Assembly (NCBI GenBank): GCA_031292625.1 | Contig: JARLGU010000019.1 | Span: 124,001-188,000 of the forward strand | Reading direction: 5' to 3' | DNA length: 64,000 bases | Source: Capsulimonadaceae bacterium | Lineage (GTDB): Bacteria > Armatimonadota > Armatimonadia > Armatimonadales > Capsulimonadaceae | Part shown: one piece after another, positions 2,527-32,115 of the stretch | Layout: each line of letters opens with the position of its first letter | Position numbering within the stretch: position 1 is the stretch's first letter | Translations under genes and position numbers: made by a program | Notes under the pieces: model-generated | Told to the model about the DNA's origin: nothing | Databases searched by the model: none | What the model saw: the letters and a program-made list of their open reading frames with translations, nothing else

Positions 2527-3345
2527 TTACTGGCGAATCGGTGCGGTTCCCGGCGCAAAATCGCCGCCTGCCCGGATCGCGCGCGGGGAAATCCCGGCGA
2601 CGCGGCGAATCATCTTATTGAACAGCTGCAAATCGGCGATACCCACCTGTTCCGCAATCGCGTGGATCGGGATGTTCGTGTGCCGCAAGAGGTTCAGTGC
2701 GATTTCCAAGCGGCGGCGGTTGATGTACCGAATGGGGGGCAGTCCCATTTCCGCGCGAAACAGACGCGCAAGATGGCTGTGCGATAAGCCGCAATCGGAC
2801 GCGAGATCCTCCAGCGCGATCGTACCGCCGATCCTTTGCTCGATAAGCCGCATCGCATGGCTAACCGCGGGATGCAGCCCCGTATTCTGCATTCCCGGGC
2901 GCGCTGTCTCGGCTGCTCGGAGCAATAGATCCCACAGCTTCACCTCCGCGCGCAGAGGATTGGTTGCTCCCAAGACGATCATTTCTTGGAAATCGGCGCG
3001 AACGCGATCAAACGAATCGCCGAGCGGCTGGATCGCCGGCACCGGTGAAGGCTGCGTGTCCGAGGCGACATTGAAGAGTGCGTAGAGGTGCTCGCTGCGG
3101 CCGGTCAAGTGGTACTCCAGCGTGCACTCCGGCGGCGCGACCGCCAGGGAACCTGGACGGATTACGTGGCGCTCGTCGCCAATGCGAAGCTCCGCGGAGT
3201 AGAGATAAAGGTGTAAGCTCCATAATCCCGTCTCCTGGTAGTAGCGCGTCAATTGCCGATCTCCGCCATGGACGCCAACATGCGCAATGATCAGCGAGGG
3301 CCGTTCGCCAAGAGGAAGCGCTCGCATAACTTGTGAATCCGCCAT
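2527..3345 (-). CDS. AraC-family transcriptional regulator
   Basis: About 272 residues starting at MADSQVMRAL. The N-terminal half is a cupin-like effector domain with a WSLHLYLYSAELRIG strand-rich segment and a VIRPGSLAVAPPE turn. The C-terminal 100 residues carry two helix-turn-helix motifs typical of AraC/XylS proteins (IALEDLASDCGLSHSHLARLFRAEMG and the second motif around AIAEQVGIADLQLFNKMIRRVAG). An upstream in-frame start at 3411 would extend the protein 22 residues across the promoter of the divergent gene, so I prefer 3345. It is transcribed away from the URO-D-like gene at 3440, a usual arrangement when a regulator controls its neighbour. Sugar-responsive members of this family are common; the ligand is not known. 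Confidence 0.93.
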   Translation of the reverse strand: MADSQVMRALPLGERPSLIIAHVGVHGGDRQLTRYYQETGLWSLHLYLYSAELRIGDERHVIRPGSLAVAPPECTLEYHLTGRSEHLYALFNVASDTQPSPVPAIQPLGDSFDRVRADFQEMIVLGATNPLRAEVKLWDLLLRAAETARPGMQNTGLHPAVSHAMRLIEQRIGGTIALEDLASDCGLSHSHLARLFRAEMGLPPIRYINRRRLEIALNLLRHTNIPIHAIAEQVGIADLQLFNKMIRRVAGISPRAIRAGGDFAPGTAPIRQ

Positions 3346-3439: not shown

Positions 3440-4477
3440 ATGACCTACTCACCAATTGCGAACCAACGTTTCCTCACAGCGCTCTTCGGAGGCGAGTTTC
3501 CCGGTCACGCGCTGATTATGGCGATGCCAGGCGCTTCTCCAATTCCGGGAGACTTTACCGTCAACGATGAGCCAATCGGCTGCCGGGTCAACCTCATTGA
3601 ACGCGAGTACGAGCGCGAATGCCGCTTCCACGAAGCGGTCGGCGACGATTCGGTTCCGTTCGCGAACCTTCACACCGGCACCGGCATCTTCGCGGCCGCG
3701 TTTGGCTGTCCGATTGTCGAGTTCGAGGGATCGAACCCCGCATCGCAGCCAATCGTCCACACCGCCGCCGAGGCGGACGCTCTCTCCGAGCCGGATCCGT
3801 GGTCGTCGCCGCTCGGCCGGCACCTCGAACTCGTAGCGGCGGTTCGCGATCGTCTAGGCGCGGACATCCCGGTCAGCGGTCCGGACATGCAGAGCCCGCT
3901 GGGACTGGCGGCGCAGATTTGGGAGAAGGCTGAGTTTATGAGCGCGCTTATTGAGGAACCCGAGATTGCTCGCGAGATCATACGCAAGTGCCACAACCTT
4001 GTCAAAAACTACCTCATCGAACTACGCAAGATCGCACCGAACATGAACGCCATCCACTGCCCCAGAATATGGGGACCGGCGGAACTCGGGGCGTCGGTTT
4101 CCGAGGACGAGGTCGGCGCGATCTCGCGCGCGATGTACGAGGAGTTCGGTCTGCGGTGTTTGATTGACCTGAGCGAGACGTTCGGGGGGCTTTATATGCA
4201 CTGCTGCGCGTCCGCCGACCATCAGTATCCGGCGTTCCAGAAGATTCCAAATCTGCGCGGGCTAAACCGCGTCTATCAATCGCCCGGCGCGAAACCGGCG
4301 CTCGACGCGTTCGGCGGCCGCACGGTGCACATGGAATGGGGAACCCTGGAGACGTTTCGCAGCCTGCTCGACTTTGACGCCCCTGGCGTACGGTTCGCAT
4401 TTTGCTACAGCCCAACGTCGATCGATGACGCCAAGAGGACGCTGGAAGTCTTGCGAAAGTGGTGTCCGCGCACATGA
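3440..4477 (+). CDS. uroporphyrinogen decarboxylase-fold (URO-D family) protein
   Basis: 345 residues from MTYSPIANQRF. Sequence features fit the URO-D/methyltransferase superfamily, a TIM barrel used both in haem synthesis and in corrinoid methyl transfer: the PVSGPDMQSPLGLAAQIW segment, the LIEEPEIAREIIRKC helix and a late MHCC motif. The MHCC motif, followed by a barrel strand ending in FCYSPTS, resembles the zinc-thiol site of the methyltransferase branch more than true HemE. Proteins of this branch are frequent next to sugar regulators and often have no assigned substrate. The 3440 start is preceded at some distance by GGAGGG. Upstream in-frame starts at 3410 or earlier overlap the divergent regulator. 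The exact reaction is unknown. Confidence 0.85.
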   Translation: MTYSPIANQRFLTALFGGEFPGHALIMAMPGASPIPGDFTVNDEPIGCRVNLIEREYERECRFHEAVGDDSVPFANLHTGTGIFAAAFGCPIVEFEGSNPASQPIVHTAAEADALSEPDPWSSPLGRHLELVAAVRDRLGADIPVSGPDMQSPLGLAAQIWEKAEFMSALIEEPEIAREIIRKCHNLVKNYLIELRKIAPNMNAIHCPRIWGPAELGASVSEDEVGAISRAMYEEFGLRCLIDLSETFGGLYMHCCASADHQYPAFQKIPNLRGLNRVYQSPGAKPALDAFGGRTVHMEWGTLETFRSLLDFDAPGVRFAFCYSPTSIDDAKRTLEVLRKWCPRT

Positions 4478-5448: not shown

Positions 5449-6987
5449 ATGCATAGCTTGTCGGACCAACAGCACAAAGAAGCCAAAGTTCATCGCCGTG
5501 GCGACCTCCTTGCTCTCGCCTTCAGCGGAATTACCGATCCCGTCATGGTTCTCGACACGGACCTCCGCGTTATCGACTGTAACGATGCAGTCATCGAGTG
5601 CTTTGCGGATAATCCTGACCGCGTCATCGGATCGCTTTGGACATCGCTCTTTCCACAACCCGAACAGGACCCGCGGGATCAGGATTTACGGATGGTTCTG
5701 AACGAAGGGATCGAGTGGCATGCGCGCATCCCCGTAATCGATGTCTCGACCGGCGACTCGCTGCTCTTCGATGTCAAAAGCTACCCTGTTAGAACCGGCC
5801 GGCGAGACACCGACCCAATCAGTCATATCGTCGTCTGCATGCACGAAGTCACGGATGAGGTCCGCACTTACCTGGAGTTGGTCGATCGGAACCGGGAACT
5901 GCAGCTCATCAAGGAAGTCCTTGAAGAGAAGGCGCAGAAGCTCGACAACGAAGTGCGCACCCTTTCCAACAACAATACCGAACTCAAGGCCGAAACATCT
6001 CGCCTTAACGAGATGGCGCTGGTCGACGTCATGACCGGCCTGCCCAACTTCCGGGCGTTCAATGACCGGCTTCACGCGGAAATCAAGCACGCCATCATCA
6101 CGGGCCGCCCGCTATCGCTGCTGTTGTTCGATGTCGACAACTTCAAGCAATACAACGACCAGTTCGGTCACCCGCAAGGCGACGACCTCCTTCGCGAGAT
6201 GGCCATGATCGCCCGCGACAGCGTGCGGTCAACAGACTTTCCCGCCCGCTACGGCGGAGAAGAGTTCGCGGTGCTGCTGCCCAAAACCGACAAGTTCGGC
6301 GCGGTCGTAGTCGCCGAGCGCCTCCGGCTGCGCATTCAGGATCACCCGATGCCGAACCGCCGCACCACGATCAGCATCGGGATCGCGGAGTTCCCGTCGG
6401 ATACCCAGGGAGTCGACGATCTCATCCAGCAAGCCGACAAGGCGATGTATGTCGCGAAGTCCTATGGGAAGAACACGAGCTGCCTCTGGTCGCGAGACCG
6501 CCATGCACAAACGAGGCGATTGGGAGCTGCGCCCGACACGCTTAAGGATGCCGACTGCGTTCCCGTACTCGGCTCAAATCCGAGCCGGCCAGCCAGTACA
6601 GCACAACGGATCCTGTTGGTAGACAAGGACGAGCTCTTACTTGCCAGCCTGCGCGATGAATTGCAGGAGTACGGCATATCGGTTTCGACCGCCGGATCGG
6701 GACGAACCGCGCTGAGCAAGCTTGCCGAATCGGCAGGCGCATTTGACGCCATGTTCACGGAGCTCGTTCTCACGGACCGGACCGGTTTCGAGCTGAGGGA
6801 GCAGGCCCTCGCCCTCCAACCCAGCCTTGCCATAATCTTCATGTCCGCGCTCGAGGCCAATGTCCGCACGCGAAACGTGTTCGATGAAAAAATCGAACAT
6901 TTGACCAAGCCTATCCACATCGCGGACGTTCTCGCCCTGCTGAACCGCGTTCACAGCGCCAGTATCTACACCCCAGCGGCGGCATAG
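5449..6987 (+). CDS. PAS-GGDEF diguanylate cyclase with C-terminal pseudo-receiver
   Basis: 512 residues. A PAS fold spans about residues 18-140. It is followed by a coiled coil (about 140-190) and a GGDEF domain whose active site reads RYGGEEFAVLLP (GGEEF at 269-273). An RSTD inhibitory I-site lies exactly five residues upstream, so both cyclase activity and product inhibition are expected. After a linker comes a response-regulator receiver fold (about 387-505) with the acidic pair VDKDE and the conserved Lys in LTKPI. The phosphoacceptor position reads FTELVL, with Glu (about residue 438) instead of Asp. A receiver placed after GGDEF, with a Glu that could mimic phosphorylation, is unusual. 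A TTG at 5389 would add 20 residues; the ATG at 5449 is preferred. The enzyme makes c-di-GMP in the cytoplasm. Confidence 0.93.
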   Translation: MHSLSDQQHKEAKVHRRGDLLALAFSGITDPVMVLDTDLRVIDCNDAVIECFADNPDRVIGSLWTSLFPQPEQDPRDQDLRMVLNEGIEWHARIPVIDVSTGDSLLFDVKSYPVRTGRRDTDPISHIVVCMHEVTDEVRTYLELVDRNRELQLIKEVLEEKAQKLDNEVRTLSNNNTELKAETSRLNEMALVDVMTGLPNFRAFNDRLHAEIKHAIITGRPLSLLLFDVDNFKQYNDQFGHPQGDDLLREMAMIARDSVRSTDFPARYGGEEFAVLLPKTDKFGAVVVAERLRLRIQDHPMPNRRTTISIGIAEFPSDTQGVDDLIQQADKAMYVAKSYGKNTSCLWSRDRHAQTRRLGAAPDTLKDADCVPVLGSNPSRPASTAQRILLVDKDELLLASLRDELQEYGISVSTAGSGRTALSKLAESAGAFDAMFTELVLTDRTGFELREQALALQPSLAIIFMSALEANVRTRNVFDEKIEHLTKPIHIADVLALLNRVHSASIYTPAAA

Positions 6988-23102: not shown

Positions 23103-23449
23103 GTCCGTGCTGCTCCATGATCAACAGATTCGTGTAAGCTCCGGCTAAATTCAGTTAGAAGCATAATACCGCATCAAACCATTCCAAGGCGCAGGAGGCG
23201 CAGTCCACTCGTCGAATTGCCCTTCCGTTCGTTCAAGGTACGAGAGACCTGACTATGCCGCGCGCCGCGTTTGCGGTTCTTCATGGTTCGCGTCTACGTT
23301 TGCGCGAATCGACACACCGGCACAGTTTGCTAAAGTCCATGGGGCAGCTCGGCTAATCTCCCTTACTCATCCGTCAAAGGAATTGCCGCCTGGCTTGTCG
23401 TAAAAGGCAAGCAGCGCCGACGTCTTCCCGTATCTCTGGAGGCTTTTCC
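23103..23449. other. divergent intergenic region
   Basis: About 347 bases between divergent genes. A short hairpin (GCTTG/CAAGC) lies about 50 bp before the downstream start, and TGGAGG precedes the ATG at 23450. No gene or clear promoter hexamers were identified. Confidence 0.4.
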
Positions 23450-25381
23450 ATGCCACGCATCGTTCTTGCATTCGTTCTTTGTGTCCTGCTCACCGGCTTT
23501 CAACCGGCAGCCCTTGCGAAGCCGTCCGCCGTGGACGCCCAGGCCCAATCGCTGCTGGCCTCGCTAGCCATCGCTGCGAAGCAAGTGCGCACTCTCCAGG
23601 CGCACGTCATCGCGCAAAGCGTGGATCGCGGCGTCTCGCGAGCCTGGGAAGGCCGCTTGATTGAGGAGAAACCCGGAAATCTGCGCGAAGACCTCTGGGA
23701 GGGCACGGAAGCCGGGTCGAAACTGAGCGGCCGCATGGATCTGCCGCATCGCGTCGTTATCGCCAATGACGCGCAGGTTTGGGAGTTCGATGGCAAGGAC
23801 ACGCTCATTAAGCAGCCCTCTATTCCCGAAGCGTTTCATATAGCGCTCGGCCTCGACATCAACGCGCTGGTCTCCCAGCAACTCGACGTCGTTCGCCGCG
23901 GCCGAGACTTTCGATATGCCGGGGATGAAACGCTGCGCGGAGCGACATACCAGGTCGTCGAGTTCGACGACACGCTTCCTCGCGAGGCGGGAAGCGATTC
24001 CGTGGCCACCGGAAGAGCCTACATTGGGGCCGACCACTTGATCCATCGCCTCATCGTAACGTGGCCGTTCGGCAGCCTGGATTGCTCGCTTACGAATGTC
24101 GTCGTTAACGCGCCGGTCGATCGCACCCTGTTTGCACTCAAGAATCCCGGCTTTCTTGGTAAGAGCGCCACGGCATCGTCGGTGCAAATGGACGCAGACT
24201 CTGTTCGCATATTGGCGAACGTGGATACGCGATACGCTACCCTTACGGCGCTGACGGCGCAATTTACGCACTCGCTCAAACTGCGCGGAGACCAGATCCC
24301 GGTCAAGATGTCGAACGTCGCCTGGCACGGAACTCTCGAGCTGCAAAAGAATGATTTCGCTCGCGTTAAGACGATCGCGGACACGGACGCGGCCAAAGAG
24401 CTACCGGGCCTCATCGGAGACGCGGTCAGCGACGGAAAATACGAATGGAAACTTTGGGACCCCGTGAATAAGTTTTACACCAAGGCGCATATGCACGAGT
24501 TTCCCGTCTTAACGATGCTCGCGTGCCCGGACGAGGCCATATTTTTCTCCGCCGGCTCCATGCAAGAGATGTACTATCCGGCCGGTGCGAAGGCCAACAT
24601 GCGTTACGCAGGCAAGGCCGTATTCCATGGGCAAACCTGTCGCATCATCCAATGCGACGCAAGCGTACCGACGCCAACGGGCGCACTGCATCAAACCGTC
24701 CGCTTGTTCGTCAACGAGCAGAACTTGTTTTCGCGCGTCGATTCTCATGCAAGCGCCGGGACAACCGTGTTCGATCAATCGCTGCAACTGGCCAAGATTG
24801 CAACTCCCGTCTCGCTTCCCGCCTCCGAGTTTACATTCAACCTTCCGGCCGGCGCAATCAGAAAGAAGCCCCGTTCAGCCGCGGACCTCAACGCGGAATC
24901 GAAAATGCTCGCGATCGGAACCGTCGCGCCTGATTTCACGGCTTTCGATCCGGCCGGCAAGGCGGTCAAGCTCAGCGACTATGCCGGCAAGGTTGTCGTC
25001 ATAGACTTCTGGGCAACCTGGTGCGGCCCGTGCCAGGCCTCGTTGCCGTCCACGAACGAACTGGCTCGCCGCTACCACTCCAAAGGCGTCGTCTTCCTTG
25101 GCGTCAACGTTTCGGATGAAGACAGCGCCTTCAGCGCTTGGCTGCCGAAGCACAAAGATCTCACATCGATTCAATTCGTTATCGATCGCGGCGGGGATCA
25201 CCACGACGCACTGATGACGCTCTACGGCGTCCTCGGCATCCCCGCTCAGTTCGTGATCGGCGCGGACGGCAAGATCGCTTGGTCGAACACGGGCTACGAC
25301 GGCGACGAAGAGTTGCTCGACGATAGCATCGCGGATGCGGTAGCCGCGGCGTCTACTGGTATTGCGCAAGCGCCGCGATAG
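23450..25381 (+). CDS. secreted two-domain protein with C-terminal TlpA-like thioredoxin
   Basis: 643 residues with a signal peptide (MPRIVLAFVLCVLLTGFQPAALA). Two successive beta-rich segments resemble the LolA/DUF2092-type outer-membrane-lipoprotein-carrier fold: about 25-235 (SLLASLAIAAKQVRTLQAHV) and about 245-480, which restarts with RYATLTALTAQFTHSLKLRG. The C-terminal 150 residues are a TlpA/ResA-type thioredoxin (VAPDFTAFDPAGKAVKLSDYAGKVVVIDFWATWCGPC). The catalytic pair WCGPC has Cys at about 525 and 528, and the cis-Pro loop GIPAQFVIG follows. It should act as an extracytoplasmic thiol-disulfide reductase, perhaps with a lipid or carrier-binding front. The next gene is a diverged duplicate. 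Confidence 0.9.
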   Translation: MPRIVLAFVLCVLLTGFQPAALAKPSAVDAQAQSLLASLAIAAKQVRTLQAHVIAQSVDRGVSRAWEGRLIEEKPGNLREDLWEGTEAGSKLSGRMDLPHRVVIANDAQVWEFDGKDTLIKQPSIPEAFHIALGLDINALVSQQLDVVRRGRDFRYAGDETLRGATYQVVEFDDTLPREAGSDSVATGRAYIGADHLIHRLIVTWPFGSLDCSLTNVVVNAPVDRTLFALKNPGFLGKSATASSVQMDADSVRILANVDTRYATLTALTAQFTHSLKLRGDQIPVKMSNVAWHGTLELQKNDFARVKTIADTDAAKELPGLIGDAVSDGKYEWKLWDPVNKFYTKAHMHEFPVLTMLACPDEAIFFSAGSMQEMYYPAGAKANMRYAGKAVFHGQTCRIIQCDASVPTPTGALHQTVRLFVNEQNLFSRVDSHASAGTTVFDQSLQLAKIATPVSLPASEFTFNLPAGAIRKKPRSAADLNAESKMLAIGTVAPDFTAFDPAGKAVKLSDYAGKVVVIDFWATWCGPCQASLPSTNELARRYHSKGVVFLGVNVSDEDSAFSAWLPKHKDLTSIQFVIDRGGDHHDALMTLYGVLGIPAQFVIGADGKIAWSNTGYDGDEELLDDSIADAVAAASTGIAQAPR

Positions 25382-25537
25382 AGAGATCGGGCGGCAAGGC
25401 GCACGTCATCAATTCACACGCGTTCATACGCGGGCGAAATTCGCTGTGTTACAAAGCGAATAAATGGGCTCGCGAGGCGGAGCCGCGATACCGATACTTG
25501 GAATCGGTTGTTCATTGCACCCCGGGGAGTCCTGTCC

Positions 25538-27514
25538 ATGCCACGAATCGCTCTTTTGACATTCGCTTGCGTCCTTCTTGCGTGCGCCCGCCTGCCAGTC
25601 GCCACGGCTTCGACGGCCGCCGACGCTAAATCTCAGGCGCTCTTGAATTCCTTTCTTGCCGCCTCAAAAAACGTCCGTACGCTACAGGCGCATGTCGTGC
25701 TGACGACGGTCATTAATGGAGTTACCAGGGTTCAAGAAGGCCGCATCGTGCTGAGCCGGAAGGAAGGCGTCCGGCAAGACCTTTGGAGCGACGACAGTGC
25801 AACGCCCGCGAACCGGTCACTCGAAAGCGTGCCGCACTCCGTCGTCATTTCCAACCGTGTACGCGTCATTACGGTTGAAGGCGCCAAGCGCGTAACGCGT
25901 CAACCGTTCTCCGAAGCGGCGCTTAGCGACGGCGAGGTCTGCGATCTGAACAGTGTCTTTTCCCGGACGTTCGGACTGTTCGACCATGTTAAGGCGACGC
26001 GCTACGCCGGAGAGGTCATCGACAACGACACATCCTATCAGACAATCAATCAGGACCTCACTTCGTCCGTTCCGGGCGACTCGAGCGTCGACGGTCACGG
26101 CACGGTTTACTTCGGCGCGGACCATCTCGTCCATCGCATAACGTACAGCGCGTTCGATAATACCCTGGACTGCGCGCTATCGAACATTATCGTCAACGCC
26201 CCCGTGGATCCGAGGATCTTCGTTCCGGCCCTGCCGCCCTTCGCGGCCAACAGCCGCCGAATCACTACGATGGATGTGGACGCCGAGGCGGCAAAACTCA
26301 TCAGCCTGGTTGACGAGCGTTACAAGACGCTCAAAGCTCTTACGATTACCTTCAAATCCTCGCAAACGAAGAGGACGCAAACCGCGCACGACACGACAAG
26401 CATCCTGCACCTGGCGTGGCACGGAACCGCCGCACTCGAAAAACCGAATCTCGCCCACGTCCATACGTACTCCGACATCGTCGAATCGCAGGCGATGCAG
26501 GGAACGTACGGCGATGCGTATTGCGACGGCCACAGCGAATGGTATGTTTGGGATACCAGGAACTGGTTCTATACGTTCAGCGCCGGAGCACAGAGCCTGC
26601 CGGCGCGAACACTCGACCAGTGCAGCAATCTTAGCGGTTTCTTTTCTTCGACATCGACGCAAGGACTGCCCGACGTAGACTGCCAGGTACACGCGTCCGG
26701 CCCGGTAACCTGGCGCGGCAAACCGTATCGCGTGGTGACGTTCACGGTCGCGAAGTCCGCTCCTGGCGACCAGCGCGTTGCGCTTTTGATGCACCTCTAT
26801 GTCGGTCCGACCTATCTTGTCGAGAAGACCGATCTCCATTTCCTTGTCAAAACGGAACGACTCGATACGGTGATCGATACCTCTTTCGAGATGTCGGACA
26901 TCAAAACCCCAGGCGATATACCGCTATCCGAGTTCACGTTCGTCCCCCCGCCTGGAGCGAAAGAGAGAGCGCCATACTCGGTTACGCCGCTCCGCCGCAC
27001 GTCCTCGCTGCTCGGACCCGGCGATGCCGCGCCTGGCTTTACCGCATACACCGCTGCCGGTAAGCGCGTCAAGCTCTCCGATTACGCCGGAAAAGTCGTC
27101 GTGCTGGTTTTCTGGGCGACATGGTATCCGCCCTGCGAGCAGGCGCTGCCGGCCGCCAACGAGATTGCGTGGCGCTATAAGGACAAGGGCGTCGTCTTCC
27201 TCGCCGTAGACACCGGCGATCGCCCGGACGCGTTTAAGTCCTGGCTCCCGCAGCACCACATCCTCGATTCGATGACATTCCTGCTCGACGGTTCGCGAAA
27301 GCGAGCGAACACCGCCGCAACGTTGTATGGAGCCAGGCTGATCCCCACGGAGATCGTGATCGGCGCCGATGGACGAATTGCGTGGTCGAGCGCCAATATC
27401 GTCGCCAACCAGCAGGCGCTTGCCGACGCGATCGCGGCGGCCCTGGCCAACGCCGCCGACACGCCCCCACCCGCGCATCCCGCTCCGGCCGTTCCCGACG
27501 ACGGCTCGGCGTAA
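25538..27514 (+). CDS. paralogous secreted TlpA-like protein with altered active site
   Basis: 658 residues. Same architecture as the preceding gene: signal peptide with a possible lipobox (VLLACARLP), two DUF2092/LolA-like segments (LLNSFLAASKNVRTLQAHV and ERYKTLKALTITFKSSQ), then a thioredoxin fold (AAPGFTAYTAAGKRVKLSDYAGKVVVLVFWATWYPPC). Here the first catalytic Cys is Tyr (about residue 530) and only the second Cys remains, so a normal dithiol exchange is impossible; a mixed-disulfide or chaperone role is possible. GGGGAGT precedes ATG 25538. The two genes clearly arose by tandem duplication with divergence of the second copy. Confidence 0.88.
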   Translation: MPRIALLTFACVLLACARLPVATASTAADAKSQALLNSFLAASKNVRTLQAHVVLTTVINGVTRVQEGRIVLSRKEGVRQDLWSDDSATPANRSLESVPHSVVISNRVRVITVEGAKRVTRQPFSEAALSDGEVCDLNSVFSRTFGLFDHVKATRYAGEVIDNDTSYQTINQDLTSSVPGDSSVDGHGTVYFGADHLVHRITYSAFDNTLDCALSNIIVNAPVDPRIFVPALPPFAANSRRITTMDVDAEAAKLISLVDERYKTLKALTITFKSSQTKRTQTAHDTTSILHLAWHGTAALEKPNLAHVHTYSDIVESQAMQGTYGDAYCDGHSEWYVWDTRNWFYTFSAGAQSLPARTLDQCSNLSGFFSSTSTQGLPDVDCQVHASGPVTWRGKPYRVVTFTVAKSAPGDQRVALLMHLYVGPTYLVEKTDLHFLVKTERLDTVIDTSFEMSDIKTPGDIPLSEFTFVPPPGAKERAPYSVTPLRRTSSLLGPGDAAPGFTAYTAAGKRVKLSDYAGKVVVLVFWATWYPPCEQALPAANEIAWRYKDKGVVFLAVDTGDRPDAFKSWLPQHHILDSMTFLLDGSRKRANTAATLYGARLIPTEIVIGADGRIAWSSANIVANQQALADAIAAALANAADTPPPAHPAPAVPDDGSA

Positions 27515-27798
27515 GGCGGTGAGAAAAGCGCGGAAACCACGAAGGAATCGCCGCACGTGTTAGTGAAGTGGATTCGAGTATTCGGGTGATGAGGGATGAT
27601 TGGAGAGTGTTAGCGCTGAAGGGCCGCCAACATCTGTTTTTTGGATTCGTACGGCAATTTCCAGTAACTTATCAATATCACATCCATCTATGTGTCGACC
27701 GCAGAGCCGTTTTAACTTATCTGAAGAAGCAGGAATCCTTGCAGCGCCGGTCATTGCCTCAAGAATCCCACGGCTATCTGCGGAAGGAAGGACAAGTT

Positions 27799-28089
27799 AT
27801 GCCAGCCTCAAATTTTTCGAATGCCAATCTCCCAGAGGGCAATTTCGCAGGCGCCGATCTCACAGGTGCAAACTTTTTCAACGTCAACATGCAGAACGCC
27901 AACTTTAGCGGGGCCGATCTTACCGGAGCGAACTTCTCCAACGTAAACCTGCAAGGCGCAAACCTAAGCGGAGCCGATCTTACCGGAGCGAACTTTTCCG
28001 GCGCAAACCTATCGGACGCCGACCTCACAGACGCCGATCTCACAGGCGCCAACTTCACAGGCGCAGAGGTGGGCAAAGCGAAGGAATAG
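27799..28089 (+). CDS. pentapeptide-repeat protein
   Basis: 96 residues made almost entirely of A(D/N)LXX/A(N)FXX pentapeptides (ANLPEGNFAGADLTGANFFNV onward), predicting a short right-handed quadrilateral beta-helix. GGAAGGA lies upstream of ATG 27799, which is preferred over the longer frame from 27568, whose first 77 codons lack repeats. Pentapeptide proteins of this size can protect targets from toxins or gyrase poisons, but no target can be inferred. Its stop overlaps the start of the 56-bp RHS-derived direct repeat, so it sits exactly at the edge of the decayed RHS zone. The 284 bases before it hold no other gene. Confidence 0.85.
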   Translation: MPASNFSNANLPEGNFAGADLTGANFFNVNMQNANFSGADLTGANFSNVNLQGANLSGADLTGANFSGANLSDADLTDADLTGANFTGAEVGKAKE

Positions 28090-28143
28090 CAGCCCGTCGC
28101 GGCATTCGATAGCGCCGCCGGACCAGGTGTTCGGCGAGTCGCC
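28088..28143 (+). repeat. 56-bp direct repeat, copy 1 (RHS core fragment)
   Basis: Exact 56-bp match to 31995-32050. In frame it encodes the RHS core segment SPSRHSIAPPDQVFGES. The two copies bracket about 3.85 kb of pentapeptide tail, membrane, ankyrin, secreted and insertion-sequence DNA. Confidence 0.9.
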
Positions 28144-28477
28144 AACCTTCGAGGAGCGCAGCGCATCCGCCGCCGCTAGCGCCGCGCTATACGGTCAGCA
28201 GTACGGCAACCAGGCCGATGCGGCGGCGAGCGACACCAACCGGCTCTACGTCCGCGCGCGGCACTACGACACGCTAACGGGGCGCTGGATGAGCCGCGAT
28301 CCGCTCGGCGATGTCGACGGGCCGAACGTGTACGCGTACTGCGGCAACGATGGCGTGCCTGCTCGCGGTCATTGCGAGAAGCCATCCGTACCTGTGGGGA
28401 TTTGCGCCGCTTGCTATATTTTTGGTATATGGCTTTGTCACTGTGGGAATTCTGCACATGCATCCGGACTACCTTAG
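28088..28477 (+). pseudogene. RHS repeat-associated core fragment with broken C-terminus
   Basis: Frame-consistent remnant carrying the conserved end of an RHS shell protein: LYVRARHYDTLTGRWMSRDPLGDVDGPNVYAYCGND. In intact RHS proteins this motif immediately precedes the variable toxin tail. Here the frame has no start and no upstream RHS body. After CGND it runs into a short Cys-rich tail that ends without a recognisable toxin. It looks like an orphan C-terminal module or the stump of a displaced RHS gene. Confidence 0.75.
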
Positions 28478-28637
28478 CGAAAACGAGTTCGGCTGGGACT
28501 TGCAGATTCTTTTTGGCGTCATCATATGCGGTGCGGCTTCGAGTGTGGGCTTTGCCATTCGTTGGTTGCGGGACATTCTCGAAATAAATGCCGCACAAGC
28601 CGACGAGTCCGATACTTCGCCGTCAGAGCCAAAGTAG
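28350..28637 (+). CDS. small two-helix membrane protein in the RHS zone
   Basis: About 95 residues from ATG 28350, in a different frame from the overlapping RHS stump. Two membrane helices (YLWGFAPLAIFLVYGFVTVGIL and LQILFGVIICGAASSVGFAI) enclose a short acidic loop, and the C-terminus is hydrophilic and acidic. No family recognised. Position directly after an RHS core end suggests a displaced toxin or immunity gene. Membrane-type immunity proteins are known in contact-dependent systems, but this is inference. Confidence 0.5.
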   Translation: MACLLAVIARSHPYLWGFAPLAIFLVYGFVTVGILHMHPDYLSENEFGWDLQILFGVIICGAASSVGFAIRWLRDILEINAAQADESDTSPSEPK

Positions 28638-28647
28638 GTTAATAGAA

Positions 28648-28707
28648 TGGCATCCTCAAAATCACCCCGGCATCATAGCCATCCTAAAGGCGGCTGGGGC
28701 GAAGTAG
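28648..28707 (+). pseudogene. ankyrin-protein tail fragment
   Basis: Twenty codons read WHPQNHPGIIAILKAAGAK then stop, nearly identical to the C-terminus of the intact ankyrin protein downstream (HPATIAILKAAGAK then stop at 29626). It is the last piece of a second, lost ankyrin gene. Confidence 0.7.
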
Positions 28708-28747
28708 CAGATGGAGTGGCGTCACTTACCTACTCGCAAGCAAAACC

Positions 28748-29626
28748 ATGGAAATCCGAAAAATACCTTGCACGCGGAAGCGGATAATCGTTTTCACGGC
28801 TCTACTGATCGCTGCCGTTATAGCGAGCACGATTCTCTACCGCAACTGGAAAAACGCTCCGATATTAAATGCGGCTGCCGGACTTTTCAGGGTTGACGAC
28901 GTAAATGCGGCGCTCGCCACGGGAGCAGATGTGGATGCCACGAACAGTATTGGAGACACCATACTTCTCGCGGCTGCGAGAAACGGCGACATCGAAAGTG
29001 TGAAGTACATCGTGTCCAGGGGGGCGAATGTTAACGTGAAAAACAATAACCACTGGACACCGCTCAAAGCAGCGGCGCAGAACGGTCATTTAGAGTGCGT
29101 AAAGGCTCTCGTAATAAATGGCGCAAATGTGAACGATGTGGATCGGACGGGATTTACACCACTGATGGCTGCTACGCAGTCTGGCGACATCGATTGCGTC
29201 AAATATCTTGTATCGAAAGGCGCAGACATCCACGCCCGTTCGCAGTGGGGTTCGACGGTTCTTGATGTCGCTGCTGGATACGGCAGCCTTGAGTGCGTTA
29301 AGTTTCTCGTCTCGAAAGGACTGGATGTAAACGCCCAATTTGATGGCTACGGCACGGCTCTCTCCTCCGCCACTGGCAATCGCGTTGATACAAGGCAGGT
29401 GATTACTTATTTGCTTTCCAAAGGTGCCGACATAAACTTGAAAGACAACCATGGCATGACGGCGCTTATGTACGCGTGCAAAGCAGGAAAGTCGGACTGT
29501 ATCACGCTCTTGATTTCCAAAGGTGCGGACATTGGCGCAAGGGACAACACTGGCAAGTCTGCTCTTACGTGGGCGAAGGGGCATCCTGCGACGATTGCGA
29601 TCCTGAAGGCGGCAGGAGCGAAATAA
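28748..29626 (+). CDS. membrane-anchored ankyrin-repeat protein
   Basis: 292 residues. An N-terminal membrane helix (IIVFTALLIAAVIASTILY) follows a basic start. About seven ankyrin repeats then run to the end (for example GDTILLAAARNGDIESVKYIVSRGANVNVKN, then TPLKAAAQNGHLECVKALVINGANVND). Ankyrin proteins are common immunity or adaptor proteins in polymorphic-toxin loci. Here the gene lies between RHS fragments and next to a decayed copy of its own tail, consistent with an immunity role, but no toxin is intact nearby. No good ribosome site precedes the start. Confidence 0.9.
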   Translation: MEIRKIPCTRKRIIVFTALLIAAVIASTILYRNWKNAPILNAAAGLFRVDDVNAALATGADVDATNSIGDTILLAAARNGDIESVKYIVSRGANVNVKNNNHWTPLKAAAQNGHLECVKALVINGANVNDVDRTGFTPLMAATQSGDIDCVKYLVSKGADIHARSQWGSTVLDVAAGYGSLECVKFLVSKGLDVNAQFDGYGTALSSATGNRVDTRQVITYLLSKGADINLKDNHGMTALMYACKAGKSDCITLLISKGADIGARDNTGKSALTWAKGHPATIAILKAAGAK

Positions 29627-29674
29627 TCGAGACACCGTTGCCTGTCCGTACGAGCAGGTTGAGGATAAACATTC

Positions 29675-30124
29675 ATGAATATCAAGGCAATACTGACACT
29701 GGCAGTCGCTATGACCGCAATCGTTATCGGATTTTTCGCTCACCATTCCGCTAATGCTCAACAACCAGCGTCCGCCCCAATTACATTCACGGACAAACCC
29801 GCTGAACATCGCAACGGAGATTTTCGGATCACCGCCGCTCGTTTTGCCGACACACCAAGGGGACGCATCTATGACGGTCGCGTAACCATTGAGACTTTCC
29901 ACTCGAAGCCAGTTCTTATGGTCACAGCGACGAAGGACGGTCTCAAGTTCAGCGAAATCGGCAAAATAGGAACGCCGTCCTCATTGATGCCTTTTGCGAC
30001 GATGCAATTCGATAAGGATAGCATGACCGTGGAGTTGAAGAGCGGCGTCACAACATTTCGCGACGGCAAAGGGCGAAGCGCCGCGATTTATGGATTTGGT
30101 GCCAAGCCAGAACGACCACAGTGA
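29675..30124 (+). CDS. small secreted protein, unknown function
   Basis: 149 residues with a clear signal peptide (MNIKAILTLAVAMTAIVIGFFAHHSANAQ) and a beta-rich mature part (FRITAARFADTPRGRIYDGRVTIETF). GAGGAT lies upstream of the start. Starts 49 bp after the ankyrin gene and could be co-transcribed with it. No family recognised. Confidence 0.7.
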   Translation: MNIKAILTLAVAMTAIVIGFFAHHSANAQQPASAPITFTDKPAEHRNGDFRITAARFADTPRGRIYDGRVTIETFHSKPVLMVTATKDGLKFSEIGKIGTPSSLMPFATMQFDKDSMTVELKSGVTTFRDGKGRSAAIYGFGAKPERPQ

Positions 30125-30143
30125 ATCGTATGTCTTTGGGACT

Positions 30144-30279
30144 CCCCCTACTGCCAATTTTTCCCAGGATCGGTGGTGGGGGTACTTTCGTTTGGTTCCA
30201 TAAAAGGAATAGCGAGTTCCACCGCGCCAGTTGGAAGCCCTAATGAGGTTCCGTCTGTTCGCGCGCGGGCAGTAGGGGG
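30144..30279. repeat. 136-bp element with 12-bp inverted ends
   Basis: CCCCCTACTGCC (30144-30155) and its exact inverse GGCAGTAGGGGG (30268-30279) bound a short non-coding segment directly left of the insertion sequence. Could be a REP/MITE-like element. Confidence 0.5.
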
Positions 30280-30289
30280 CGGGGATCAA

Positions 30290-31484
30290 TCTGGACTTTG
30301 GCCATTTTAGGGCTATGAACTGGATCGATGAGGGAACATGCGTTTCCGTGTCGAATTTTATGTGACCAAACAACAAAACCGTTCGGAGGTCGCATGTTCA
30401 CCCCATCTGCTGAGATTGTTCGACTGCTGCGCCGATTTTCCTGCTGTTTCACTGCTCCTGCATTCCGCAAAGCTTCGCTGCTTGTGTGCGGTTCAATCCT
30501 TACGCCTGGTCGGCACACCGTGACATCGGCACTTCGTGCGGTCGGTCTGCAATCGGAGAAGACGTTCGGCAGCTATCACCGCGTCCTGTCGCGGGATCGT
30601 TGGTCGGCGCTCAGACTAAGTTCAATATTGTTGTCTTTGCTGTTAAAGATTCTTATTCCGCAAAATCAGCCTCTCGATCTCGTTGTTGATGAGACGCTTG
30701 AGCGGCGGCGCGGCAGGAAGATCGCCTACAAAGGCTGGTTTCGCGATGCGGTCCGCTCGACGCAATCCTGCGTGGTGACCACGTTGGGTGTCCGCTGGCT
30801 TTGTGTGTGCGTACTCGCGCCCGTTCCATGGAGCAATAGGCGCTGGGCGCTCCCCTTCCTGACGTTGCCGTCGCTCTCCGAAAAGATATGCGCCAAACTG
30901 GGCCGCGCCTATCGCGGAACGGCAGGGCTAACAATCGATGCGCTGGTTAAGATTAGGCAGTGGATAGGCGACAAGCGCCTCATGAGGCTCATCGCCGACG
31001 GTGGGTTCAGCCATATCGAGCTGCTTCATTTCGCTAAATCGCTGGATGTCACGCATATCGGCAGGCTGCAAGTCAACGCGGGACTGTACGATGAGCCAGC
31101 CGAGCAGACCGTCAAGAAGTCAGAGCCTGCCTGGGCTTCGAGACGCAGAGGGGATGGACAAACCGAACGATGGGCCGAACAACGCCGTGCCTCTTTGGCA
31201 CCTTCAGCCTTGTCGTCCTGCTTGCAGCGCGCCTGTATCCCAATGGATTGCCAGTTCGACAATCGGCATGGTATACCAAAGAGCAGGCGACCTTCAGAGA
31301 TGTCCTGTGCGCCGTCCGAGAACATCTTTGGGCCAACGGCTTCACCATCTCAGAACCGAAACAGGTCGGGGAGAATACAGACGGGGCATCATTCCGACAA
31401 TACTATCGCCTAATTCCAGCCTATCTCTTCGAAGCCATGCAGGACATGGCATGCTACGCCGCCTGATTTTGGCCAAAGTCCAGA
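30290..31484. mobile_element. insertion sequence with 15-bp terminal inverted repeats
   Basis: TCTGGACTTTGGCCA at 30290-30304 and its exact inverse at 31470-31484 bound a 1195-bp element holding one transposase-like gene. The encoded DDE protein resembles the DDE_5/IS701-IS4 group. No target-site duplication is obvious. The transposase is disrupted, so the element is probably immobile by itself. Confidence 0.8.
30394..31466 (+). pseudogene. disrupted DDE transposase (DDE_5/IS701-like)
   Basis: The start MFTPSAEIVRLLRRF follows GGAGGT. The first catalytic Asp region reads VVDETLERRRGRK, followed by WALPFLTLPSLSE and the second Asp region LIADGGFSHIELL. Around 31100-31170 the coding frame changes. 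The C-terminal part continues in another frame (RQSAWYTKEQATFRDVLCAVREH to the stop at 31466), and the segment expected to carry the last catalytic Glu seems shortened. Frameshift and probable internal deletion mark it as non-functional. Confidence 0.8.
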
Positions 31485-31485
31485 C

Positions 31486-31764
31486 AGACTAGAGGCAGTC
31501 GCTTATTCTTTTATCCTAATAGGACAGCGGATTAAGGCCGACGCGGCACTACAAGCCCTCCTCGAAAAAGCTAACGCCCATTTGGCTATGGAAAGAGCTC
31601 AAAGTTTTGAACCTGGTGTTATAGAGCAGCGTACAAAGTATCAGCTTGAATTTATTGACCGGGTTTCCAAGATGATGTCTCTCGTGAGATCTGATGTAAC
31701 CGCAGCACAAGCACAACTTGAAGAATACAAAGACAATTCGTTAAGAGACCTTGGTCTTTTATAA
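31486..31764 (+). pseudogene. C-terminal coding remnant after the insertion sequence
   Basis: An open frame runs from the insertion-sequence edge to a stop at 31764 (LEAVAYSFILIGQRIKADAAL, then a helical, charged tail ending LRDLGLL). There is no start codon with a ribosome site before 31582. Probably the 3' end of a gene cut by the insertion, with coiled-coil-like composition. Function unknown. Confidence 0.45.
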
Positions 31765-31841
31765 TAGCTATTCCAAATCAGCCCATAGTAGTTACGAAAT
31801 GTTGCATTTACAAGAGTTCATTGTCGTGTCAGGCTCGCTGA

Positions 31842-32057
31842 AGCCGCAAGTCTATCACAAGCGTTGGTAACGGCGCGGTCGTCAGCCACATCTACGACCC
31901 GTCAAACCGGACGCGGTACGTGCTCGACGCGGACGGCGAGATTATCGCGGCGTTCGTCGGCAGCGCGTTTGGGCAGGTGGTGCTCGGAGGCTCCAGCAGC
32001 CCGTCGCGGCATTCGATAGCGCCGCCGGACCAGGTGTTCGGCGAGTCGCCGTCGGCT
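31842..32057 (+). pseudogene. second RHS core fragment
   Basis: Reads SHIYDPSNRTRYVLDADGE and onward to SPSRHSIAPPDQVFGESPS, the part of an RHS core just before the region preserved at 28.1 kb. The shared 56-bp repeat lets the two fragments be joined on paper into one continuous RHS core end, in reversed order on the chromosome. It stops making sense after the repeat and runs into the antisense of the MgtC gene. Confidence 0.7.
31995..32050 (+). repeat. 56-bp direct repeat, copy 2
   Basis: Exact copy of 28088-28143, located 3907 bp downstream in the same orientation. Homologous recombination between the copies would delete the cassette between them. Confidence 0.9.
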
Positions 32058-32115
32058 ACTCGTAAAACGAGACGCGAAGCGCAAGAAAAGTGGGCTAGCG
32101 CCCATAGAGCGACTC

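Follow-up and report, generated by a model that had tools for sequence, protein, structure and literature searches.

According to the sections of Jackson et al. (2009, BMC Genomics 10:584, PMC2935791) cited here, rhs genes are followed downstream by a GC-poor region that contains fragmentary core and tip sequences, and a GC peak is used to define these dissociated tips. Orphan toxin fragments can fuse to the main rhs gene by recombination, as described in the cited part of a later study (Koskiniemi et al. 2014, PLoS Genet, PMC3967940), and ankyrins appear as repeats of toxin proteins in the polymorphic toxin cassettes treated in the cited part of Zhang et al. (2012, Biol Direct, PMC3482391). 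No literature joining the Armatimonadetes with the RHS repeat was found.

The zone described here lies within a stretch of 64,000 nucleotides (the window, on contig C46 of its assembly). Like the dissociated tip arrays, as far as the cited sections of PMC2935791 describe them, it combines core fragments of variable length, tips and GC peaks in GC-poor DNA with other genes in between. Unlike them, the window contains no intact upstream RHS gene, the toxin part was lost, and one of the fragments is without a tip instead of without the upstream core. With the orphan rhs-CT/rhsI pairs in the cited part of PMC3967940 it shares a promoterless core fragment beside a candidate immunity gene but lacks a toxin domain, and the main rhs gene was not found; a fusion of the kind described there can hence not arise from the window copy. 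The polymorphic toxin cassettes, as presented in the cited part of PMC3482391, offer a further parallel in cassette arrays that adjoin immunity genes.

Core pieces, repeat and intervening genes

The zone is bounded by a direct repeat of 56 bp (table 1) whose two copies, at a spacing of 3907 bp, are exact, as the sequence-only reading had claimed. A search of the whole genome with each half recovered these two copies and no third, and an identity of 56 bp within 64 kb is not a matter of chance. The piece that begins with copy 1 carries the hyperconserved RHS core end that characterizes dissociated tips (TIGR03696, E 6.7e-13, 48.9 bits against a cut-off of 32.5), and it fits positions 91-154 of a core-end profile, built from 12 core ends of relatives and contig C61, with 62 bits. 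The sequence-only reading had extended this core end from 28088 to 28477; its identity stands, but the homology stops at about 28357, ahead of the DPSG motif with which the toxin part of RHS tips starts, and the frame from 28357 to 28477 matched no family in Pfam or NCBIfam. The upstream RHS shell is missing, as it is from dissociated tips, with the pentapeptide-repeat gene abutting the core end, and the variable C-terminal toxin domain that a dissociated tip module carries behind its core is missing too. With neither upstream core nor toxin domain, the first piece is a decayed relic and not a complete tip module.

The piece ahead of copy 2 fits profile positions 54-93 with 7.1 bits on its own and ranked second in a scan of 912 window segments (4.8 bits, E 1.9). 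Because this match is weak alone, the RHS identity of the second piece leans on the shared 56 bp; the earlier assignment of 31842-32057 as a core piece is thus upheld by the profile positions together with the repeat, over a span of about 31860-32050. On the profile the two pieces abut, and the repeat forms the linker that joins them. In the window the downstream half (91-154) comes first and the upstream half (54-93) second, which confirms the reversed order that had been noticed. Both pieces form GC peaks (0.696 and 0.681, respectively) amid GC-poor DNA, as is used to define dissociated tips, with a GC content of 0.527 for the DNA between them, 0.524 for the pentapeptide stretch, and 0.596 and 0.588 for the flanks.

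Table 1. Features of the zone and its borders (window positions)
Feature	Position	Strand	Evidence and remarks
Pentapeptide-repeat gene	27568..28089	+	Pfam PF00805, E 3e-33; GC-poor
56-bp repeat, copy 1	28088..28143	+	Codes for the linker directly ahead of the RHS core end
RHS core end	28088..28357	+	TIGR03696; profile match
95-aa membrane-like ORF	28350..28637	+	Start inside the RHS remnant, in another frame; possible orphan immunity gene
Decayed 3' tail of another ankyrin gene	about 28663..28707	+	83% DNA match to C16:32549-32601
Ankyrin-repeat protein, 292 aa	28748..29626	+	Intact ORF; Pfam Ank_2, E 3.9e-82; possible immunity gene
149-aa protein	29675..30124	+	Intact ORF; signal-peptide-like N-terminus; weak PCNA_C match below cut-off
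IS701-like insertion sequence	30290..31484	+	Disrupted transposase; NF049999, DDE_5, inverted ends
3' end of coiled-coil-like ORF	31582..31764	+	Possibly broken; adjoins the insertion sequence
Tip-less RHS core stub	31860..32050	+	Ends in repeat copy 2 (31995-32050); profile positions 54-93

The membrane ORF, the ankyrin gene and ankyrin tail, the small secreted-looking protein and the insertion sequence that had been placed between the fragments were all recovered there. At the left border, a T and the first two bases of the 56-bp repeat make up the stop codon of the pentapeptide-repeat gene; since the repeat completes this codon, the gene was probably cut at the junction and belongs to the zone. 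The 95-aa membrane-like ORF matched no family in Pfam or NCBIfam, and among 291 phylum genomes no relative of this protein or of the 149-aa secreted-looking protein occurs outside their own. The ankyrin tail matches the end of an ankyrin gene on contig C16 and, in part, also the end of the neighbouring ankyrin gene, and the intact ankyrin protein is 45% identical to a C16 paralogue. The coiled-coil-like ORF matched no family over its cut-off. In the IS701-like element the transposase reaches 141 bits with NF049999 against a cut-off of 170 (DDE_5, E 4e-22), and the inverted ends are exact over 15 bp (30290-30304 and 31470-31484). No target duplication was seen in the flanks inspected, and a transposase model over its cut-off together with a target duplication, by which membership of the IS701 family was judged, was not found; the element is probably a decayed copy. 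Outside the zone, two thioredoxin-like fusion proteins that are 39% identical lie in tandem (23438-25354 and 25508-27514), and 40 bp beside the right junction (32072-32111) have an 83% match on contig C25 and are possibly an intergenic repeat.

RHS tips in the same genome and in relatives

A total of 14 TIGR03696 matches were found in the window's own genome, and the 11 over the cut-off lie on eight contigs: C45 (L036), C33 (L017), C20 (L037), C61 (L038), C29 (L039), C51 (L018), C46 (the window) and C7 (L040). A search with the 1310-aa RHS protein of a family relative (L051) gave 12 matches, all to residues 731-1237, and no N-terminal RHS shell was detected in the assembly, with no match before residue 731. 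The earlier observation that the window holds no full RHS gene thus extends to the whole assembly as far as this search reaches. PF25023 as a probe for the shell also gave no match, which is a poor test as the same search matched in only one of 14 control genomes. Besides weak tip matches, the genome contains no other copy of either core piece, and no intact upstream rhs gene with the same core was found. RHS pieces sit at the ends of several contigs (C7 end, C24 start, C29 start, C45 start and C51 end), so that the assembly could lack a long RHS gene. The C24 start (L085 1-400) and the C51 end (L018 6500-6901) both carry RHS pieces, and their outermost 16 bases look reverse-complementary; these two contigs may be neighbours.

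The longest RHS remnant, of 611 aa on C61, is open from its 5' side directly behind the stop of another gene. This tip gene (L038 7026-8861) is followed by a tip-less core piece (6235-6666) that is 77% identical to it. On C33, a first tip has a C-terminal domain and is followed by an ORF, and a second tip behind them lacks such a domain; at L017 5830-7341, an orphan tip, whose C-terminal domain ends HIHIGPVNHIW-like, and the 224-aa ORF that follows it are a candidate intact toxin/immunity module.

Among the 41 genomes compared, the window's own (G000) included, 32 contain RHS tips at E <= 0.001 and 28 contain tips over the cut-off. Many tips in relatives form arrays in which they lie 1.2-1.7 kb apart, and the core fragments in these arrays begin anywhere from profile position 1 to 133 (25 loci were compared on the profile, chosen because they held tips). 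A layout like that of the window is present on contig C50 of G008 (L048), with a tip at 3704-3988, a small membrane-like protein at 2771-3163 and a tip-less stub at 2417-2677, and G002 (L049) contains a full RHS ORF followed by an ankyrin ORF and a small membrane-like ORF. An RHS gene with the window linker, which the sequence-only reading had suggested looking for, was found neither in the own genome nor in 30 other genomes (searched with 5.2 kb of DNA) nor in two scans of GTDB species genomes with each half, and the existence of such a gene elsewhere is unsupported. Since no intact parental module with the linker was found, there is no relative from which to tell where the modules begin and end. 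Among the tips that stop early, a conserved breakpoint at the core end was also considered and rejected: their ends differ in place, and several result simply from frameshifts or decay.

Ankyrin proteins can act as immunity proteins, and the positions of ankyrin genes relative to tips were compared in four genomes. Among the matches listed, the ankyrin genes that lie on the same strand within 1.5 kb downstream of a tip are 3 of 7 in G008 (P 1e-6), 1 of 5 in G021 (P 0.014), 1 of 35 in G002 (P 0.024) and 1 of 15 in the own genome (P 0.025), where these P values are rough because they rest on the matches listed and on ankyrin matches of one gene being merged by eye, and where the last is not independent, the window having prompted the test. 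The tips used were the best 19 of 24 (G008), 15 of 18 (G021) and 7 of 9 (G002), and for the own genome 13 entries made from its 14 matches, the two on C55 being merged. Most ankyrin genes among the matches listed are not near tips, and two of the genomes are rich in ankyrins (59 Ank_2 matches in the own genome and 108 in G002). Overall, ankyrin genes exceed expectation directly downstream of tips, and this suggests some of them as immunity partners; the excess fits such a role and is no proof of it. For the membrane and secreted proteins, which are without relatives in the other phylum genomes, no link to toxin loci elsewhere emerges. By the terms of the sequence-only reading itself, this and the failure to find an RHS gene with the linker count partly against it. 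As candidates for an immunity gene directly downstream of the core end, the window offers the membrane ORF and, by neighbourhood only, the ankyrin gene.

Origin of the zone

The zone probably represents the remains of two tandem RHS tip modules that were truncated at their outer sides, the repeat being the overlap of the survivors. What is observed directly is the pieces in their order, together with the repeat, the GC signature and the parallels in relatives, and from these we infer the deletions, the sequence in which they took place and the immunity roles. The starting state would be a tandem array of RHS tip modules, each with a core fragment, a toxin and an immunity gene. Module 1 would have lost everything ahead of the linker, probably through a deletion by which the remainder was joined to the pentapeptide-repeat gene, and its toxin domain as well, leaving the membrane ORF and the ankyrin genes, which may be former immunity genes. 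Module 2 would have lost its tip by a deletion that ended at the MgtC side. The surviving pieces would then overlap by 56 bp and present the repeat in reversed order, and the IS701-like element would have landed between them afterwards. Two remnants that are cut on their outer sides always overlap by some length, and 56 bp needs no special site; because early tip ends stop at different places, no site-specific mechanism is claimed. That this overlap is identical points to a duplication or conversion of fairly recent date. The geometry of a tip followed by a stub recurs on C61 and on C50 of G008.

A circle opened at the repeat would present precisely this order of pieces, linker and tip first and core and linker last, and circular tip intermediates have been proposed (Jackson et al. 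2009, in the cited sections of PMC2935791). An episomal circle of core, linker and tip that was opened at the 56-bp linker and integrated between non-RHS flanks is nevertheless improbable: it needs a 56-bp linker that already stood alone between the MgtC side and the pentapeptide-repeat gene, and no such linker is known; the pentapeptide-repeat gene appears truncated where it meets the repeat; on C61 and on C50 of G008 the tip precedes the stub with no comparable short exact repeat; and no empty site was found, the four MgtC-bearing contigs of relatives examined not being syntenic in their flank genes (MgtC and generic families account for all matches of window ORFs on these contigs). A still bolder form, in which the zone is the footprint of a circle that integrated outside any RHS gene and the dispersed, shell-less tips of the genome would be cassettes able to move with no main rhs gene to serve them, is very doubtful. 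If true, the circle would have left a tangible mark of the intermediate required by the C-terminal displacement model. It is likewise highly unlikely that the order arose from a wrong join of the assembly through the 56-bp repeat. The RHS pieces at several contig ends indicate that RHS repeats did trouble the assembler, but there are no Ns at the junctions, and contig ends overlap by exactly 141 bp, far above 56 (nine pairs among 63 ends compared, 60 contig starts and three contig ends). Such overlaps indicate a de Bruijn assembly whose last word length was 141, in which the surroundings of a 56-bp repeat should be resolved; the comparison of contig ends largely rejects a k-mer artefact, and the repeat is unlikely to be one.

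A different question is whether the zone still works as an orphan immunity locus, its membrane, ankyrin and secreted proteins protecting against the toxins of kin. This is unlikely, if somewhat less so than the circle: the ankyrin and the secreted-looking ORFs are intact and ankyrins adjoin tips in relatives, but the cognate toxin is missing, the membrane ORF starts within the RHS remnant, and two of the three proteins are without relatives in the phylum genomes. A surviving toxin domain is not supported here, and as neither a toxin nor a main rhs gene was found, the copy in the window is probably defunct. As decayed tandem modules, the remnant is now probably without function, although the ankyrin protein may retain some role in immunity.

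The likeness to arrays of orphan tip and immunity modules that had first been suggested is backed by the profile match, the GC signature and the arrays of short tips in relatives. The GC peaks, the core fragments of variable length and the tip arrays in relatives match the zone to the dissociated-tip arrays as characterized in the cited sections of Jackson et al. (2009, PMC2935791). RHS genes code for toxins of bacterial warfare, and their loci are known to collect displaced RHS ends in this manner, so that the find is an ordinary one. Its value lies mostly in annotation: it illustrates the decay of RHS tip modules and shows that dissociated tips, as described in Enterobacteriaceae, are common in the phylum of the window genome as well.
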